DNA of 64,000 bases from Chitinophagales bacterium (GTDB lineage: Bacteria > Bacteroidota > Bacteroidia > Chitinophagales > JADJOU01): positions 1 through 64,000 of the forward strand of contig JAEUUY010000014.1 in assembly GCA_016787225.1 (NCBI GenBank), given 5' to 3'. This document shows positions 53,070-64,000 of the stretch, in pieces. Within the stretch, counting starts at the first letter, position 1. Each line of letters starts with the position of its first letter. The notes under the pieces are model-generated. The model had not been told where the DNA came from and made no database searches. It was given only the letters and a program-made list of their open reading frames with translations. A program made the translations under genes and the position numbers.

Positions 53070-54422
53070 TTATTGTATTCGAATCTCACTGGAGAAAACA
53101 TCGAATTCTTTTTCTTTTTCCAAGAGGTAGTTGCGCTTCTCGCTGTCCTTTACCAGTTCTAGAATTGGATTCGTAGAGGCATTCATGGTCTCAAAGAATG
53201 GTTCGTTGTGATAATTATTGCCCGTAATAGGAGCGCTCATCCAGTCGGTATTTCGCTTGACATACCGCATATTATTGTCTATAAACATAAATTGATTATA
53301 GCGGTACTTATCTCTCGTTACGCCTCTATGCTTATACCAGAAACTCTGAGTCATAGGGAAACTAAACTCCTCATTTTTAAATAGTGTCGTAGTCTGTTCT
53401 TCACCTATAGCTTCCATTAGACTATGATAGATAAATCTACTGCTAATAGGTTGGTCAATAGTTTTAGCTACACTACCGCCGGGAGGCAACCAAAATAATG
53501 GCACTCTATTGCCCCCATCATTCACGTTAGAAAAATGATAATACCAATCTTGTTCGCCGAAATTGTCTCCATGATCGGAACAGAATACAACTAGGCTATC
53601 CTTATCTTGATGTATGTTTTGAATAAACTGGTTCAAATCATTTTTTATAATTTGATAACTCGTCATCTGACGCTGATAAATTAAATCAGCATACTTCTGA
53701 TTGATAACAGGTTTATCATTGATTAAAAAATTCTGATTGACTATTTTGAAGAGCGTTATAGTCTCCATAGCCTTTTCCCATAGCCCCTTGCCAGATAGCC
53801 CGAAGGTATCTGCTATATGATAAGGGAAATGGGTTTCCATTAAATTGATAAAGAAAAAACAAGGCTGATTCTTGGCATCATTTTCTTCTATGAGTTGCTG
53901 AACTTTTTCAAAATTATTCCTATGTGTATTCTGTCCCCAGCAAGTAGCTACTTCTAGATCTTCACTTAGCTTATCGCTAATCACATCTTTGGAGAATAAC
54001 ATTTTCCTCACTCTAGGTTTTCCTATGGAGAGTAAGAGTCGCATCGTTTTCTTGAGCTTGGGTGTCACCAACTTCCACACTTTGTGAACTTCATCAAATC
54101 CTCTATCTAATCCGAAAATATCCGTCGTTACGGGATTGGCAGTGACTTGGATAGTTTTATAGCCTTTTTCCTTCATTTTTTCTGCCAAAGTAGGAATATC
54201 GCTTCTCAATCTACGCGTATGCGTATCGGCTCTATGTTCATGTACATTGAGGCCGGTAAACATACAAGAGGTAGCAGGCAGCGTCCAGCAGGCCGAAGAA
54301 CGAGCTTGGGTGAACTGAATACTGTTATTTTCTACATAAGGCATGTCCACCCCATTTTGATAAACAGAGTCTTTTCGTAGGCTATCAGCTACTATGAGAA
54401 ATATGTGTTTCGGCTTATTCAA
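53070..54422 (-). CDS. Sulfatase-like alkaline-phosphatase-superfamily hydrolase
   Basis: The 450-residue protein has the metal-binding start IFLIVADSLRKDSVY and the second metal site in VVFCSDHGDNFGEQDW. The nucleophile region is SACWTLPATSCMFTG: the position of the formylglycine cysteine/serine (C-x-P-x-R) is Thr47 (T-L-P), and the Arg is missing. It therefore need not be a true sulfatase; phosphodiester or phosphotransfer chemistry is possible. There is no signal peptide. TTG at 54422 is the only usable start; the open frame upstream lacks ATG. Confidence 0.85.
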   Translation of the reverse strand: MNKPKHIFLIVADSLRKDSVYQNGVDMPYVENNSIQFTQARSSACWTLPATSCMFTGLNVHEHRADTHTRRLRSDIPTLAEKMKEKGYKTIQVTANPVTTDIFGLDRGFDEVHKVWKLVTPKLKKTMRLLLSIGKPRVRKMLFSKDVISDKLSEDLEVATCWGQNTHRNNFEKVQQLIEENDAKNQPCFFFINLMETHFPYHIADTFGLSGKGLWEKAMETITLFKIVNQNFLINDKPVINQKYADLIYQRQMTSYQIIKNDLNQFIQNIHQDKDSLVVFCSDHGDNFGEQDWYYHFSNVNDGGNRVPLFWLPPGGSVAKTIDQPISSRFIYHSLMEAIGEEQTTTLFKNEEFSFPMTQSFWYKHRGVTRDKYRYNQFMFIDNNMRYVKRNTDWMSAPITGNNYHNEPFFETMNASTNPILELVKDSEKRNYLLEKEKEFDVFSSEIRIQ

Positions 54423-56998: not shown

Positions 56999-58153
56999 AT
57001 GATATTATATGATGAATTAATTACTTGGCAAAATTTATTGCCACTGACGTTTACAAGAAGTATTGCGGAATGCAGAGTTGGCATTTTGACTATTCAAGAG
57101 AAATGGAAGCATTATTTAAAAACTGAGAGTCAGATAGAATATGTACAGGAATATTTGCGTCATACATCAAACGATAATTCTGACGGAATTAGAATTGTTT
57201 CCAACCTTTTGCCTAATAAAGAACTGGTTAATGTAATAGCCGGACTTACTGAAAATTCTGCTTTGTTTTATGATAATATAGAAATAGCTTCAAAGAATAA
57301 AAAAGTTGATTTTAAAATACTAACTTATAATGGTGCAATTTCTTTTATCCATTATCCATGGGATATATTTCTAGCAAACGATGCTGAAATTCGAAAAGAC
57401 TATGAACTAATAACTGCTGGAAGAACAAGTGCTCATCTCAGTTCTGATAATAAAATAATAGGCGAAAATATATTCATAGAGCCAGAAGCGAAAGTTCACT
57501 GCAGTATCCTGAATACAAATACAGGGCCGATTTATATAGGTAAAAATGCTGAAGTAATGGAAGGCGCTACTATTCGTGGACCATTTGCATTAGGAGAGAA
57601 TGCCCAAATTAAAATGGGGGCTAAAATCTATGGTGCTACAACTATTGGGGCAGGATGCAAAGTAGGCGGAGAAATTACCAATTCCGTTTTCTTCGCCAAT
57701 TCCAATAAAGCACATGATGGATATTTAGGAAACTCTGTTCTTGGAGAATGGTGTAATCTCGGTGCTGATACTAATTCTTCTAATCTGAAAAACAACTACA
57801 GCCAAGTAGATATTTATAACTATCATCAAAATGCCTCTATCGATACTGGACAGCAATTTCTAGGCTTAATCATGGGCGATCATTCAAAAGCGGGAATCAA
57901 TACCATGTTTAACACTGGGACGGTTGTAGGTGTTTGCGCTAATATAGTAGGTGCTGGTTTCCCAAAGAAACATATTCCGTCATTTAGCTGGTCAATTTCT
58001 GAAAAAATAAGACCATATGATTGGGAGAAAGCATTGGAAACAATTCGTATAGTTTATGCACGTAGAAATCGAATTCTTACAGAACATGAAGAAAATATAT
58101 TAAAACACATCTATCAAGAAACATTTCGTACACAAGCAGAAAGTAAATTATGA
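56999..58153 (+). CDS. GlmU-like sugar-nucleotide transferase
   Basis: The 384-residue protein has a degenerate nucleotidyltransferase-like N-terminal half (ILYDELITWQNLLPLTFTRS) and a left-handed beta-helix of hexapeptide repeats from about 150 (IYIGKNAEVMEGATIRGPF, GAKIYGATTIGAGCKVGG). The helix fits acetyltransfer. The family is annotated as a putative UDP-GlcNAc diphosphorylase/acetyltransferase. It differs from classical GlmU, notably in lacking a clear LxxGxGTRM motif. It overlaps tpiA by 4 bp. Confidence 0.82.
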   Translation: MILYDELITWQNLLPLTFTRSIAECRVGILTIQEKWKHYLKTESQIEYVQEYLRHTSNDNSDGIRIVSNLLPNKELVNVIAGLTENSALFYDNIEIASKNKKVDFKILTYNGAISFIHYPWDIFLANDAEIRKDYELITAGRTSAHLSSDNKIIGENIFIEPEAKVHCSILNTNTGPIYIGKNAEVMEGATIRGPFALGENAQIKMGAKIYGATTIGAGCKVGGEITNSVFFANSNKAHDGYLGNSVLGEWCNLGADTNSSNLKNNYSQVDIYNYHQNASIDTGQQFLGLIMGDHSKAGINTMFNTGTVVGVCANIVGAGFPKKHIPSFSWSISEKIRPYDWEKALETIRIVYARRNRILTEHEENILKHIYQETFRTQAESKL

Positions 58154-58920
58154 GTGAGAAAAAAATTATAGTAGCCGGTAATTGGAAGATGAATAAAACC
58201 TATCTGGAAGCCAAAGAGTTTATTGCCAAATTAAACAAGCTACCAGAACTAAAGACTAGAACGATTATAGCTTCACCAAGTCTTTATGTCGATACACTAT
58301 TTATCAATAATGAAAAGAAAAATGTTTTCTTAGCATTACAAAATTGTAGCGCCTATGAAGGCGGAGCCTATACCGGAGAGATATCTGCAAAAATGATAGC
58401 TTCGCTTCAACTTAGCTATTGCATAGTTGGGCATTCTGAACGGAGACAATATTTCGGCGAAACAGATGAATCTGTTGCTGATAAATTAAGTCTACTGATT
58501 AAAAACAATGTTTCGCCGATTTTTTGTGTTGGTGAAACGCTGACAGAAAGAGAAAAAAACGAAACATTCAATATTATCCGCAGACAACTATTGAGAGGAT
58601 TAAAAGGCGTAGATAATGAATGTATTCAGAAGGTAATTATAGCCTATGAGCCTGTATGGGCTATTGGAACAGGTGTTACCGCTTCTAAAGAGCAAGCGGA
58701 AGAGGTTCATAAGTTTATTTTTGATTTACTATCTGAAATTTATTCATCCGAAATTAGCAAGCGTGTTCCTATATTGTATGGTGGTAGCTGCAACGAGAAG
58801 AATGCGGAAGAACTTTTCAAGCAGCCCAATATATGGGGTGGTCTCATTGGTGGAGCAAGTCTAAATATTGAAAGTTTTTATAATATCATGCAAACTGCTG
58901 AAAAAATAAATGAGCAATAA
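58150..58920 (+). CDS. tpiA: Triosephosphate isomerase
   Basis: The 256-residue enzyme has GNWKMNKTYLEA (catalytic Lys), GHSERRQYFGE (catalytic His) and AYEPVWAIGTG (catalytic Glu), followed by YGGSCNEKNAEEL, which binds the phosphate. It interconverts dihydroxyacetone phosphate and glyceraldehyde 3-phosphate. Its start overlaps the GlmU-like gene (ATGA) and its end overlaps the next gene by 11 bp, so it is part of a tight run with polysaccharide genes. Confidence 0.97.
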   Translation: MSEKKIIVAGNWKMNKTYLEAKEFIAKLNKLPELKTRTIIASPSLYVDTLFINNEKKNVFLALQNCSAYEGGAYTGEISAKMIASLQLSYCIVGHSERRQYFGETDESVADKLSLLIKNNVSPIFCVGETLTEREKNETFNIIRRQLLRGLKGVDNECIQKVIIAYEPVWAIGTGVTASKEQAEEVHKFIFDLLSEIYSSEISKRVPILYGGSCNEKNAEELFKQPNIWGGLIGGASLNIESFYNIMQTAEKINEQ

Positions 58921-59947
58921 AAAAAATATTCTATGCTTAGGTGGCTCGAGAAATCAAACGAGTCAATTGCATCAAATAGCCTGTCACTTAGAAAAGGATT
59001 ATAATATTTATTATAGTCAAATATTCGGAGAAGGCTTTTTATATAAAGCTGCAGCTGAAATAGGTTTTTTTGACAATACCGTTTTAGGAAGAGATAGTTC
59101 ATTTACTAAAGCTTCCCAGCAATATCTTAAGCTACATGAATTAAACTATGATTATAGAGGTAGAAGTAAAGGAATTAAATATGATTTGGCCCTTCTTTCT
59201 ACGGATATGATAGTCCCGAAAAGTTTTAAGAAAATAAAAACGGTATGGATTCAAGAAGGCATGATTGATCCTATAACTAATTTTGGTAAACTCGTGAAAA
59301 AGCTAGGACTTCCTGCATATGCTACGGCTAGCACTGCACTCAATGGCACATCGAATTCTGCTGATTTATACTTTGCTATGTCACGTGGATATAAAGAATA
59401 CTTTACGACTTACGGTACCCAAAGTGAGAAAATACTTGTTACAGGTGTTCCAAATTTTGACAACATACATGCCCTATTAGAAACCTCCTATAATGAAAGT
59501 GGATTTGTTTTAGTAGCAACCTCAGACATTAGAGAACTTGGAGGAAATGATGACAGAACTTTTCTAATAAATGAAGCTATAAAAATTGCAAATGGGCGAA
59601 AAATAATTTTTAAACCGCATCCAAACGAAAATATTGAAAGAGTAATTTCTGAAATCAGGTCAATCATACCTCATGCTCATATTATTACCGAACCTATCAT
59701 CGATATTTTAATAGCACATTGTGATGTACTAATAACACAATACTCTTCTTGTGTATATCAGGGATTGGTTTTAGGAAAAAAAGTATATAGTTATTTCCCG
59801 ATCGAAGAACTAGAGTTTAAAAAACCGATACAGAATGGAGGCAAAAGTGCTGAAATCATTTCCAACATCGTTCGTGAATTTATGGAGTATAAAGGCGATA
59901 AAAATCAATTTATTCAATCTTCTTCTTCGGTGAAAGAGTTCCAATAA
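58910..59947 (+). CDS. GT-B-like protein, possible glycosyl/glycerophosphotransferase
   Basis: The 345-residue protein has a Rossmann-like start (NILCLGGSRNQTSQLHQIA) and a second half with VLVATSDIRELGG, IFKPHPNENIERVI and ILIAHCDVLITQYSS. This arrangement recalls GT-B enzymes and CDP-glycerol-type transferases. The KPHPNE motif matches the phosphate-binding position of those families, but the assignment is by shape only. It lies between tpiA and the spsF-like gene in the same run, consistent with surface polysaccharide assembly. Confidence 0.68.
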   Translation: MSNKKNILCLGGSRNQTSQLHQIACHLEKDYNIYYSQIFGEGFLYKAAAEIGFFDNTVLGRDSSFTKASQQYLKLHELNYDYRGRSKGIKYDLALLSTDMIVPKSFKKIKTVWIQEGMIDPITNFGKLVKKLGLPAYATASTALNGTSNSADLYFAMSRGYKEYFTTYGTQSEKILVTGVPNFDNIHALLETSYNESGFVLVATSDIRELGGNDDRTFLINEAIKIANGRKIIFKPHPNENIERVISEIRSIIPHAHIITEPIIDILIAHCDVLITQYSSCVYQGLVLGKKVYSYFPIEELEFKKPIQNGGKSAEIISNIVREFMEYKGDKNQFIQSSSSVKEFQ

Positions 59948-60000
59948 TTGAAAGTTATGTATAGAGACCCCTCTTTATGGAACAACCTTAAAAAAATGAA

Positions 60001-60798
60001 ATGATGACAAAAATATTAACCATAGTTCAAGCCAGAATGAGCTCCACTAGACTACCTGGCAAAATTATGAAAACAATTTTAAATAAACCAGTACTTCAAT
60101 TACAGTTGGAACGAATGGCTTACTCTCGCTATTGTGGCCAAATAGTAGTAGCCACCTCCACCAATATAAAAGATGACGTAATAGAAGATTTTTGTAAATC
60201 TAATCAGATAGAGATTTTCAGGGGAGATGAAGATGATTTATTAGATAGACATTTTCAATGTGCTATTCAATATAAAGCCGATATCATAGCTAAAATACCA
60301 TCAGATTGTCCTTTAATTGATGCTAAAGTAATGGATAAAGTTTTCGATTATTTTATAAATAATGATTTTGACTTTGTATCTAACCTTCACCCACCAAGTT
60401 ATCCAGATGGCAACGATGTAGAAGTATTTACATTTAAGGCTTTAGAAAAAGCAGCTCACCTAGCTCGTAAAAAATTAGAGCGCGAACACACAACTCCATA
60501 TTTTTGGGAAAATCCGCATCTATTCAAAATTGGGAATGTACTATGGGAAAAAGGGCTAGACTATTCTATGAGTCATAGATTCACCTTGGATTATCAAGAA
60601 GATTTCGAATTTATTCAAAATGTATATGAAGAATTGTATCCCTCTAATCCCAATTTTTCTTTAGACGATATTCTCCAACTCTTAGCTATTCGACCAGATA
60701 TCTATGATATCAATTCAAACCTTGCAGGTGTCAACTGGTATAGAAATCACTTGGATGAGCTAAACACTATTACCTCTAGTCAAACTAAAATTATCTAA
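60001..60798 (+). CDS. SpsF-like cytidylyltransferase
   Basis: The 265-residue protein has the nucleotidyltransferase start TIVQARMSSTRLPGKIM, then IVVATSTNIKDDVIEDFC, DDLLDRHFQC and KIPSDCPLID. The block DGNDVEVFTFKALEKA is typical of SpsF proteins related to CMP-KDO/acylneuraminate synthetases. It activates a sugar for surface polysaccharide in characterised members. An ATG three bases later is also possible. It is followed by the GT2-flippase fusion after 17 bp. Confidence 0.85.
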   Translation: MMTKILTIVQARMSSTRLPGKIMKTILNKPVLQLQLERMAYSRYCGQIVVATSTNIKDDVIEDFCKSNQIEIFRGDEDDLLDRHFQCAIQYKADIIAKIPSDCPLIDAKVMDKVFDYFINNDFDFVSNLHPPSYPDGNDVEVFTFKALEKAAHLARKKLEREHTTPYFWENPHLFKIGNVLWEKGLDYSMSHRFTLDYQEDFEFIQNVYEELYPSNPNFSLDDILQLLAIRPDIYDINSNLAGVNWYRNHLDELNTITSSQTKII

Positions 60799-60815: not shown

Positions 60816-63200
60816 ATGCAGTTTCCTTGGATATATATACAAATTCCGCATTACAATAATGCACCTTTCTTGAAGGAATGTTTAACAAACGTTTCTCAAA
60901 TCGAATATCCAAATTTTCACTCAATTTTAATAAATGATTGCTCAACAGATCATACTAAAGAAACACTGAGCACCATTAACCTTCCAAATAATATTGCTAT
61001 TATCCATAATGTGGAAAGGCTGGGAAGAGTTGGCAATTATCAGTTTGCATTTAAGCAGAGAAAGCATGCCAAATGGCTTATTAATAAAGATAGCGATGAT
61101 TATTATACCGATAATTCTTGGATAAAAACTGCTATGCAAATAGTTCAAAACAATCCTAACGATAAAATTGTCCATATTCAATCCAATTTTTTAGCACGAA
61201 TAGAGATTAGTAAGACTAAAATAATTAAAGATTATGGCGACGGGTACTATTTGATTTCAGGATATGAATATGTGAAACTCTGTATACAATATTATGGATT
61301 TTCTCACCTCAGCAGTATTTTCAATGTAGAGCTTATTGAAAAATATGGTGCATATTCTGACGAATGTTTGCATACAGATTTTTTGACGGCTGCGAGAGCA
61401 GCTATCCAGGGCAACGTAATCGTCGGTTCTAAGGAAATAGGTGTTTGGAGAAAACATGATGGGAATCAATCTGTTCACAGATATAGCGAGGAAGAATATG
61501 TCAAAAATCAAATCGCGTACTATCGTTTCTTTGAATGGTGTGAAAATTTCTTGTCTTTTAAACAAGTGAGAAAATTAACGACTATATTTGAGAATAGAGA
61601 GTTTGACCGAAAATTAGTTTCAACTATTCAGAAACGAAATTTTAGAGAACTAAGTCAATTTTTTCTAAAAGAAAATTTTTCAATATGGCCTGTTATATTA
61701 AGCCTTATCAGAATATTTATTTCAGATTTTAGTTATGCAAAATTATCTTATATAGGGCACGGACTTATCACTCGAGGGGCATCTGTACTGATTACACTTA
61801 TAGTCCTACCCTATATTATAAAGCAACTCGGAGTAGCTGAGTATAGTTGGATTGGGGTTTTTACGACTATTTCTAGCGCTATCTATATTTTTGATTTTGG
61901 ACTCACAAATATTGTCACTAAGGAGATAACACAGAAGGGATTAAAATCTAAAGATCATTTAAAAACTATCATAGCTAGTCAGGAAGTTATATACTTAGCC
62001 ATAGGGATTTTTATTTTTTTTGTGCTTCTATTTTCTTCAAACTGGCTGACTGCTCATTGGTTTTTCAGTAATTCTGGAATGGGAAATACGCAAAACTTAA
62101 TGAGACTTATTGCTTTTGCTATACTTATGCAATGGCCGCATTCCTTCTATACAGGAGTTTTATTTGGCTTAAATAAGCAGGCTTTATCGAATTATACTCA
62201 GGTAGGACTCACTGCCTTGAAGAATTTTGGAACTATTTTTCTTTTCTACTCTTTAGCACCTAGTATTGAGCTATTTTTTTATTGGCACATAAGCATTTCA
62301 TTTCTCACTATACTCATTCAGAAGTTTTTTGTTTATAAAGAAACTCAATTCATCAATCCTTTAAGATTTTTTTCTACTAGTTATCTCAGTCAATTAAAAC
62401 AACTAGCTCTAGGCATATCCTTCATCAGTATTTTTGGATTTATCTATGGAGATGTGAATAATTTTTTACTAACTAAATGGCTAAGTAAAACCGAGTTTGG
62501 ATATTATGCCATCTTATACAATATTATTATGGCATTTATAATGTACTGCGCTACAGTAAAGAGTGCATTGTTTCCTTACATATCAAAATTATTATTATCA
62601 GAGCCTAATGAGGTTATAAAAAATAATTACTATAAACATACTATAATTATCAGCTATACTCTGATCCCCATCTGCATAGCACTAATTGTTTTTCGAATGG
62701 ATATCTTAACTCTTTGGTTATCCAATGTCGATATCGTGCATAAACTAAATACTTCGTTTGGTTATATAACAGCAGGAAGCCTATTCAATGCATTAATGAT
62801 TATACCATGGACATATTTAATAGCAATGTCTAGGCCGAAATTTCTTATTTATTTAACAGGTTTTATTGCGCTTTTATCTATCCCGCTTCTCTATTTTTTA
62901 GTATATCATTTTGAATTTGAAGGAGCATCTTTATACTGGCTTATCATCAATATTCTGCCGTTACCCGTTCTAATCTATTACTTTCATTCCCTCATTCAAT
63001 TTGACCACGCCAAGTATTTCCTACATCTAATATTTGTACCTATAGTATTCTCTACCGCATTTCTTTACACTACTTCTTACGTCTTAAATACTCTCCAACT
63101 TCATTCCATTGCCAATATTGCCATTTGTGTCTTAGCTTTGGCTGTGACCTATTTTTCCATTCTTAGCTACAAATTCTTTGTATCAAAGCACAAATTTTAA
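60816..63200 (+). CDS. Fusion of GT2 glycosyltransferase and Wzx-type flippase
   Basis: One uninterrupted 794-residue frame holds a GT-A domain (about 1-240; WIYIQIPHYNNAPFLKECL, LINDCSTDHTKETL, acidic KDSDDYY). A linker follows, then from about 305 a polytopic membrane protein of the Wzx/polysaccharide-flippase type (HGLITRGASVLITLIVLPYI, GVAEYSWIGVFTTISSAIY) with about 12 segments. Flippases move lipid-linked saccharides across the inner membrane. The two are normally separate proteins. There is no stop or start between them, so a natural fusion is likely: the sugar-adding and flipping steps would be held together. Confidence 0.88.
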   Translation: MQFPWIYIQIPHYNNAPFLKECLTNVSQIEYPNFHSILINDCSTDHTKETLSTINLPNNIAIIHNVERLGRVGNYQFAFKQRKHAKWLINKDSDDYYTDNSWIKTAMQIVQNNPNDKIVHIQSNFLARIEISKTKIIKDYGDGYYLISGYEYVKLCIQYYGFSHLSSIFNVELIEKYGAYSDECLHTDFLTAARAAIQGNVIVGSKEIGVWRKHDGNQSVHRYSEEEYVKNQIAYYRFFEWCENFLSFKQVRKLTTIFENREFDRKLVSTIQKRNFRELSQFFLKENFSIWPVILSLIRIFISDFSYAKLSYIGHGLITRGASVLITLIVLPYIIKQLGVAEYSWIGVFTTISSAIYIFDFGLTNIVTKEITQKGLKSKDHLKTIIASQEVIYLAIGIFIFFVLLFSSNWLTAHWFFSNSGMGNTQNLMRLIAFAILMQWPHSFYTGVLFGLNKQALSNYTQVGLTALKNFGTIFLFYSLAPSIELFFYWHISISFLTILIQKFFVYKETQFINPLRFFSTSYLSQLKQLALGISFISIFGFIYGDVNNFLLTKWLSKTEFGYYAILYNIIMAFIMYCATVKSALFPYISKLLLSEPNEVIKNNYYKHTIIISYTLIPICIALIVFRMDILTLWLSNVDIVHKLNTSFGYITAGSLFNALMIIPWTYLIAMSRPKFLIYLTGFIALLSIPLLYFLVYHFEFEGASLYWLIINILPLPVLIYYFHSLIQFDHAKYFLHLIFVPIVFSTAFLYTTSYVLNTLQLHSIANIAICVLALAVTYFSILSYKFFVSKHKF

Positions 63201-63265: not shown

Positions 63266-64000
63266 ATGCGTTTTAGATTCACACTTCTTATTTTAGTATC
63301 TAGTCTAGGTCTTTACTCACAAGGCTCATTGAGGTTTGAGAATAAAAAAATGTATCTAGGAAATCTTGAAATCAATAATACTTATGGCATCAATTTTAGC
63401 TATGAAAATGTCTCTGGCAAAACTATCAAACTAAGTTATGAACCAATTACTAATCTCGTTAATGCCACCTTTAAAAAAGAGGATATTCTGCCAGGTGAAA
63501 AAGGGAGTTTAAAAATCAATTTCTATCCCGAAGCAGAAGGTCCTTTTAACGAAAGACTTTATATAATAATTAATGACAGTGAAAAAATAGAATTGAGTAT
63601 ATACGGTTCTGTCAAGACTATTTCACAATCATTCAAATCATTGACAGAAAGCAATAGGCTCTTTGGCGATAGAGATATTGCCTTTATGGTAGTAGATGCA
63701 GAGACTTTTATAGGTATACCTTATGCAAAGGTATTTATCAAAAATTCTACCAATAATAAAAGTTACATAGGAGTAGCTAATCGCTTTGGGGCACTTGTAA
63801 ACAGAATACCAGAAGGTAAGTATAATATTCAAGCTATTGTAGAAGGATATGGAAAAGATGTGCTTGATATCAAATTAGATCCAAATAGAAATATTGCCTT
63901 TATAATCCTTGAAAAACCTGAAATTAAAGATTCTTTTGTCAAACCAGACACCCCTACTAACCTATTAGTCGCTAAAACTATTGATAGTGTTAATTATCAA
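63266..64000 (+). CDS. Secreted DUF1573-like protein with carboxypeptidase-regulatory-like domain, 5' part
   Basis: Starting at ATG 63266, the frame is open to the right edge (245 codons shown). A signal peptide (MRFRFTLLILVSSLGLYS) is followed by an Ig-like DUF1573-type region to about residue 115 (YEPITNLVNATFKKEDILPG). After it comes a region near 140-205 (VDAETFIGIPYAKVFIKNS, EGKYNIQAIVEGYGKDV) like carboxypeptidase-regulatory domains. Such layouts often continue into an OmpA domain, but that end is not visible. Confidence 0.8.
   Translation, partial: MRFRFTLLILVSSLGLYSQGSLRFENKKMYLGNLEINNTYGINFSYENVSGKTIKLSYEPITNLVNATFKKEDILPGEKGSLKINFYPEAEGPFNERLYIIINDSEKIELSIYGSVKTISQSFKSLTESNRLFGDRDIAFMVVDAETFIGIPYAKVFIKNSTNNKSYIGVANRFGALVNRIPEGKYNIQAIVEGYGKDVLDIKLDPNRNIAFIILEKPEIKDSFVKPDTPTNLLVAKTIDSVNYQ

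Follow-up and report, generated by a model that had tools for sequence, protein, structure and literature searches.

The window, the 64,000-nucleotide stretch of DNA analysed here, contains near its end a gene that joins a family 2 glycosyltransferase (GT2) domain to a polysaccharide flippase. The gene occupies positions 60816–63200 of the forward strand, begins with ATG and runs as one open reading frame of 794 amino acids plus stop, with zero internal stop codons and same-length orthologues in three other species. Residues 1–240 (60816–61535, forward strand) comprise the GT2 catalytic domain, as defined by Pfam (PF00535), by alignment with stand-alone GT2 proteins and by profile matches to the PDB. 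A helical linker of residues 241–307 (61536–61736, forward strand), with a hydrophobic stretch at 288–306, is delimited by hydropathy, by a structural model and by the start-codon and dN/dS analyses given below. It leads into a MOP/Wzx-type flippase domain of residues 308–794 (61737–63197, forward strand) with ~14 transmembrane helices, assigned by Pfam (PF01943), Foldseek and hydropathy. An earlier note on this DNA had described a single frame joining a GT2 domain to a Wzx-type flippase, and the description is borne out: the frame is free of stops, Pfam matches both halves, and the gene is a real fusion. A simple hydropathy scan finds 12 strong hydrophobic segments after residue 316 and one more at 288–306. 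An AlphaFold model, built from four sequences and of low confidence (mean pLDDT 55), has an N-terminal part of alternating strands and helices followed by ~14 long helices from residue 308; at this confidence no interface between the two domains could be read from it.

The Pfam match of the GT2 half to Glycos_transf_2 (PF00535) covers residues 9–134, the nucleotide-sugar binding part, with an E-value of 4.3e-18 and a score of 66 bits against a cut-off of 23, which places it within the GT2 family. When aligned with stand-alone GT2 relatives, the domain reaches about residue 240. The candidate catalytic aspartates D41, D94/D95 in the DxD region and D188 at the base position are invariant across the fusions and six stand-alone GT2 proteins. 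When a profile of this half was compared with the PDB, the strongest similarity was to glycan-extending or decorating enzymes (chondroitin synthase, E-value 8e-35; GalT1, 7e-27; PglI, 3e-11), and matches to polyprenyl-phosphate glycosyltransferases were weaker (dolichyl-phosphate mannose synthase, DPMS, 1e-9; ArnC-type, 7e-5), so DPMS- and ArnC-type enzymes are not its closest solved relatives. Judged by these profiles, the GT2 half is nearest to glycosyltransferases that extend or decorate glycans, and is much less like polyprenyl-phosphate sugar synthases.

The flippase half matches Polysacc_synt (PF01943) at residues 318–592 with an E-value of 9e-8 and 32.3 bits against a curated cut-off of 28.2, as expected of the Wzx/PST group of the MOP superfamily, and MatE gives a weaker match at residues 539–693. 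A Foldseek search with the flippase half of the low-confidence model placed MurJ, MATE transporters and WzxE near the top, with E-values of 1e-7 to 5e-6; coming from such a model, this result lends supporting weight to a predicted MOP fold with 12–14 helices. In a comparison of the two closest fusions (G002 and G003; loci L003 and L004), the GT2 domain has a dN/dS of 0.09 and the flippase one of 0.22, and the flippase half may be the faster-evolving of the two. The window's genome encodes four further Polysacc_synt proteins, all without a fusion; one of these is flanked by an O-antigen-ligase-like membrane protein on one side and by a DegT-type aminotransferase on the other, both recognised by eye from their sequences.

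The possibility raised in the earlier note that a sequencing error hides a stop/start pair does not hold, and a sequencing or assembly error was rejected, since four species carry orthologous full-length fusions, none of them with an internal stop. The frame is also preserved through the linker, where residues 241–315 have a dN/dS of 0.12–0.15 in the two pairs that could be computed, with looser constraint in the linker core (residues 270–312, dN/dS 0.16–0.64). No internal start codon in the linker is conserved across the fusions, and in the window's genome the stretch between residues 252 and 340 holds no ATG, GTG or TTG codon. A separately started flippase is therefore unlikely, and production of two proteins via an internal start was rejected.

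All four near-complete genomes of the genus (G000–G003) encode the full-length fusion, at 100, 62, 54 and 53% identity to that of the window. Three of the four are public metagenome-assembled genomes whose accession prefixes differ and which are labelled Sphingobacteriales, Saprospirales and Chitinophagales bacterium. For the parts that their contigs cover, G001–G003 share the order M1 peptidase, GlmU-like, triosephosphate isomerase, GT-B-like, SpsF-like, fusion, DUF1573/VWA and MFS. The fusion diverges faster than these neighbours (53–62% identity versus about 69–92%). A sulfatase-family protein further upstream in the window (53070–54422) shares 88–92% identity with its counterparts in two further species of the genus, against the 53–62% of the fusion. 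Neither G004, of the same genus and 62% complete, nor G005, of the sister genus and 85% complete, gave a match to the fusion; in both, other genes come after SpsF.

Outside the genus, the best matches listed from 299 genomes of the order include no full-length fusion, and the two halves match in separate frames. With a profile of the fusion in 395 genomes of the class, and with a profile of the flippase half in 296 genomes of the phylum, the best matches listed outside the genus are separate flippases alone, of 323–538 codons. Among the Polysacc_synt matches listed from 395 phylum genomes, the longest frame outside the genus has 577 codons and none is fusion-sized. The plasmids and phages searched gave weak partial matches at most. 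These genome searches score a few candidates per genome and list the best matches, so fusions may exist elsewhere. The earlier claim that the halves are normally separate genes thus agrees with the unfused state of the flippase-half relatives in the order, class and phylum samples. The search for homologues with the same domain order had a mixed outcome: the proteins of four species of the genus are fused, which disposes of the suggestion that homologues are always two separate proteins, but every homologue found outside is unfused. Read most simply, this distribution points to a single event, in which the fusion formed or arrived at its present site in the ancestor of G000–G003.

Immediately upstream lies a gene for an SpsF-like cytidylyltransferase of 265 amino acids (60001–60798, forward strand; CTP_transf_3), which resembles a solved cytidylyltransferase and ends 17 nucleotides before the fusion gene. 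This operon-like spacing suggests co-expression, and the two genes are probably in the same operon. It is preceded by a gene for a GT-B-like protein of 345 amino acids (58910–59947, forward strand), with a C-terminal part of the Glyphos_transf/TagF-like type and a resemblance to the TagF-like Cps3D. Both genes were assigned by Pfam and hold the same order in G001–G003. Downstream, a gene for a DUF1573 plus VWA protein of 481 amino acids starts at 63266 (forward strand) and runs past the end of the window at 64000; its position is the same in the relatives, and Pfam scanning of the downstream neighbours recognised no carbohydrate role for it. Neither a Wzy polymerase nor an initiating transferase was recognised among the scanned neighbours (56999–60798, and 63266 to about contig position 67256), nor was a ligase or GT-C gene recognised beside the fusion. 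The locus therefore has no recognised nearby polymerase or initiating transferase of the kind that marks a Wzx/Wzy cluster, and is not an ordinary polysaccharide cluster.

The earlier note had placed the fusion beside SpsF-like and GT-B-like genes, and both do adjoin it; the link is weaker than this implies, as the pair occurs without the fusion in relatives. Relatives of the GT-B-like protein are present in 25 of the 299 order genomes. At 14 such loci outside the family, the SpsF-like gene follows directly in eight and one gene further along in one, and at none of the 14 does a fusion lie beside the GT-B-like gene. Together with G004 and G005, where an adjoining fusion is likewise absent, these loci weaken the case for SpsF-like and GT-B-like proteins as obligate partners. 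At one Pfam-scanned locus (L055), the genes after the GT-B/SpsF pair encode the two halves of a split transketolase, then a class III aminotransferase and a short-chain dehydrogenase, and other loci of two families have the same gene sizes and order, as judged by size without a Pfam scan. Such gene content suggests that the GT-B/SpsF sets may encode a pathway to an unusual CMP- or CDP-activated sugar. At another locus, one 713-aa frame (G124; L066:3146–5284) combines an SpsF-like domain with a class III aminotransferase and lies just downstream of a gene for a phytanoyl-CoA-dioxygenase-like protein (recognised by eye).

The flippase half and GT2 enzymes are also associated outside the genus, as neighbouring genes. 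A GT2 gene lies directly downstream in 19 of 37 separate flippase relatives, compared with 4 of 40 control flippases (Pfam assignments; Fisher p = 1.2e-4), the controls being the top-scoring Pfam Polysacc_synt members and not a random draw. Counted by genus, the figure is 11 of 22 (p = 0.001). The paired genes often overlap by 1–4 nucleotides. In none of the 37 is a GT2 gene directly upstream, so the gene order in the relatives (flippase then GT2) is the reverse of the domain order in the fusion (GT2 then flippase). The adjacent GT2 genes span several GT2 subgroups, and most are not closely related to the GT2 half of the fusion; the fusion is therefore not a simple read-through of a common arrangement. 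From these comparisons the fusion appears to join, in reversed order, two gene families that often travel together. Given the reversed order and the mostly distant GT2s, what the neighbour signal backs is a partnership of this kind and not the exact pair.

We favour, at a rough probability of 0.55, a model in which the protein is a single bifunctional inner-membrane protein whose GT2 domain adds a sugar and whose attached flippase then exports the same lipid-linked glycan. In a 14-helix MOP flippase both termini should be cytoplasmic. With the helix count of ~14 and this family topology, the N-terminal GT2 domain should lie in the cytoplasm, where lipid-linked glycans are built. There it would add a sugar, perhaps the last, to an undecaprenyl-linked glycan, which the C-terminal MOP flippase would move to the outer leaflet. 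The fusion would keep the enzyme close to the flippase mouth, which would let completed units be passed on and make it less likely that unfinished ones occupy the lipid carrier. The model rests on inference for the activity of both halves, for their action in sequence on one and the same molecule, for the sugar being the last, and for the identity of the glycan and lipid. Sequential action is favoured because the GT2 half is closest to extending glycosyltransferases, because Wzx flippases can tell units apart by their terminal residue, and because poor flipping sequesters undecaprenyl phosphate (PMC6436433). A direct hand-off from GT2 to flippase is plausible, and is made more so by the neighbouring flippase and GT2 genes in relatives. 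A more specific and tentative version is that the GT2 domain adds a terminal sugar that licenses the glycan for flipping and hands it straight to the attached flippase, as a built-in quality check; if so, Wzx substrate selection would become directly testable.

Two other accounts keep both halves active and give them different roles. The GT2 domain may make a single sugar linked to polyprenyl phosphate, as GacI- or DPMS-like enzymes do, which the fused flippase would turn outward for a GT-C enzyme. In the four-component systems GacI/GacJ/GacK/GacL and WpsA/WpsB/WpsG/WpsJ a GT2 enzyme does work together with a Wzx-type flippase (PMC10821137), and the lack of a recognised polymerase beside the fusion fits decoration rather than a polymer. 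Those systems consist of separate proteins in which the GT2 makes an undecaprenyl-phosphate sugar, and the GT-C gene that they would lead us to expect was not recognised beside the fusion. The fused GT2 half resembles extending glycosyltransferases far more than polyprenyl-phosphate ones, and hydropathy gives it no membrane helices apart from 288–306. We therefore regard the single-sugar explanation as unlikely. It is also doubtful, in our assessment, that the halves were joined merely for shared expression or stoichiometry, or to anchor the GT2, and serve the same pathway with no direct hand-off. Here the precedents are fused Mur enzyme pairs that catalyse non-successive steps (PMC6420597) and a GumK-AceQ glycosyltransferase fusion in Acetobacter (PMC7961339), and the hydrophobic linker could be a former GT2 membrane anchor; yet simple joining does not specifically explain the adjacency of flippase and GT2 genes in relatives.

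That one half is inactive, for example with the GT2 domain kept only as a flippase sensor or lid, seems very improbable when all the candidate catalytic aspartates are invariant and the dN/dS of the GT2 domain between G002 and G003 is so low. Returning to the bifunctional model, its parts have known counterparts. WzxE and MurJ, as MOP Wzx/PST flippases, share the fold and Polysacc_synt membership of the C-terminal half, but neither they nor any of the relatives found outside the genus are fused to a glycosyltransferase. The glycosyltransferase domain of chondroitin synthase, GalT1, TuaG and PglI, the last of which acts on a lipid-linked oligosaccharide, have a family 2 domain with the same conserved aspartates but lack the C-terminal 14-helix flippase. 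MraY-MurG, MurE-MurF and GumK-AceQ likewise place two pathway enzymes on one polypeptide (PMC6420597, PMC7961339), although none joins a glycosyltransferase to a MOP flippase. AceC, for which a Wzx-like domain is claimed in passing (PMC5050591), was rejected as a precedent, as two other papers name AceE as the acetan flippase. In the literature searched we found no report of a glycosyltransferase–MOP flippase fusion, and databases may still contain one. The novelty is in the joining, each half being an ordinary member of a known family.

A conserved natural fusion provides a fixed one-to-one system in which coupling of a transferase and a flippase can be tested, and bears on the selection of completed units by Wzx flippases and on whether glycosyltransferases pass their product on. 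It raises the prospect that a building step and an export step may be physically coupled. By the Rosetta-stone argument, the separate flippase and GT2 neighbours of many Bacteroidota may also work as a pair. A common setting of the separate flippases (L007, L008, L009, L020 and L021) is a cassette in which a CmcI-like methyltransferase (PF04989) immediately precedes the flippase and a GT2 gene immediately follows it, and at L021 what by eye seems to be the same methyltransferase lies upstream of a tandem pair of flippases.
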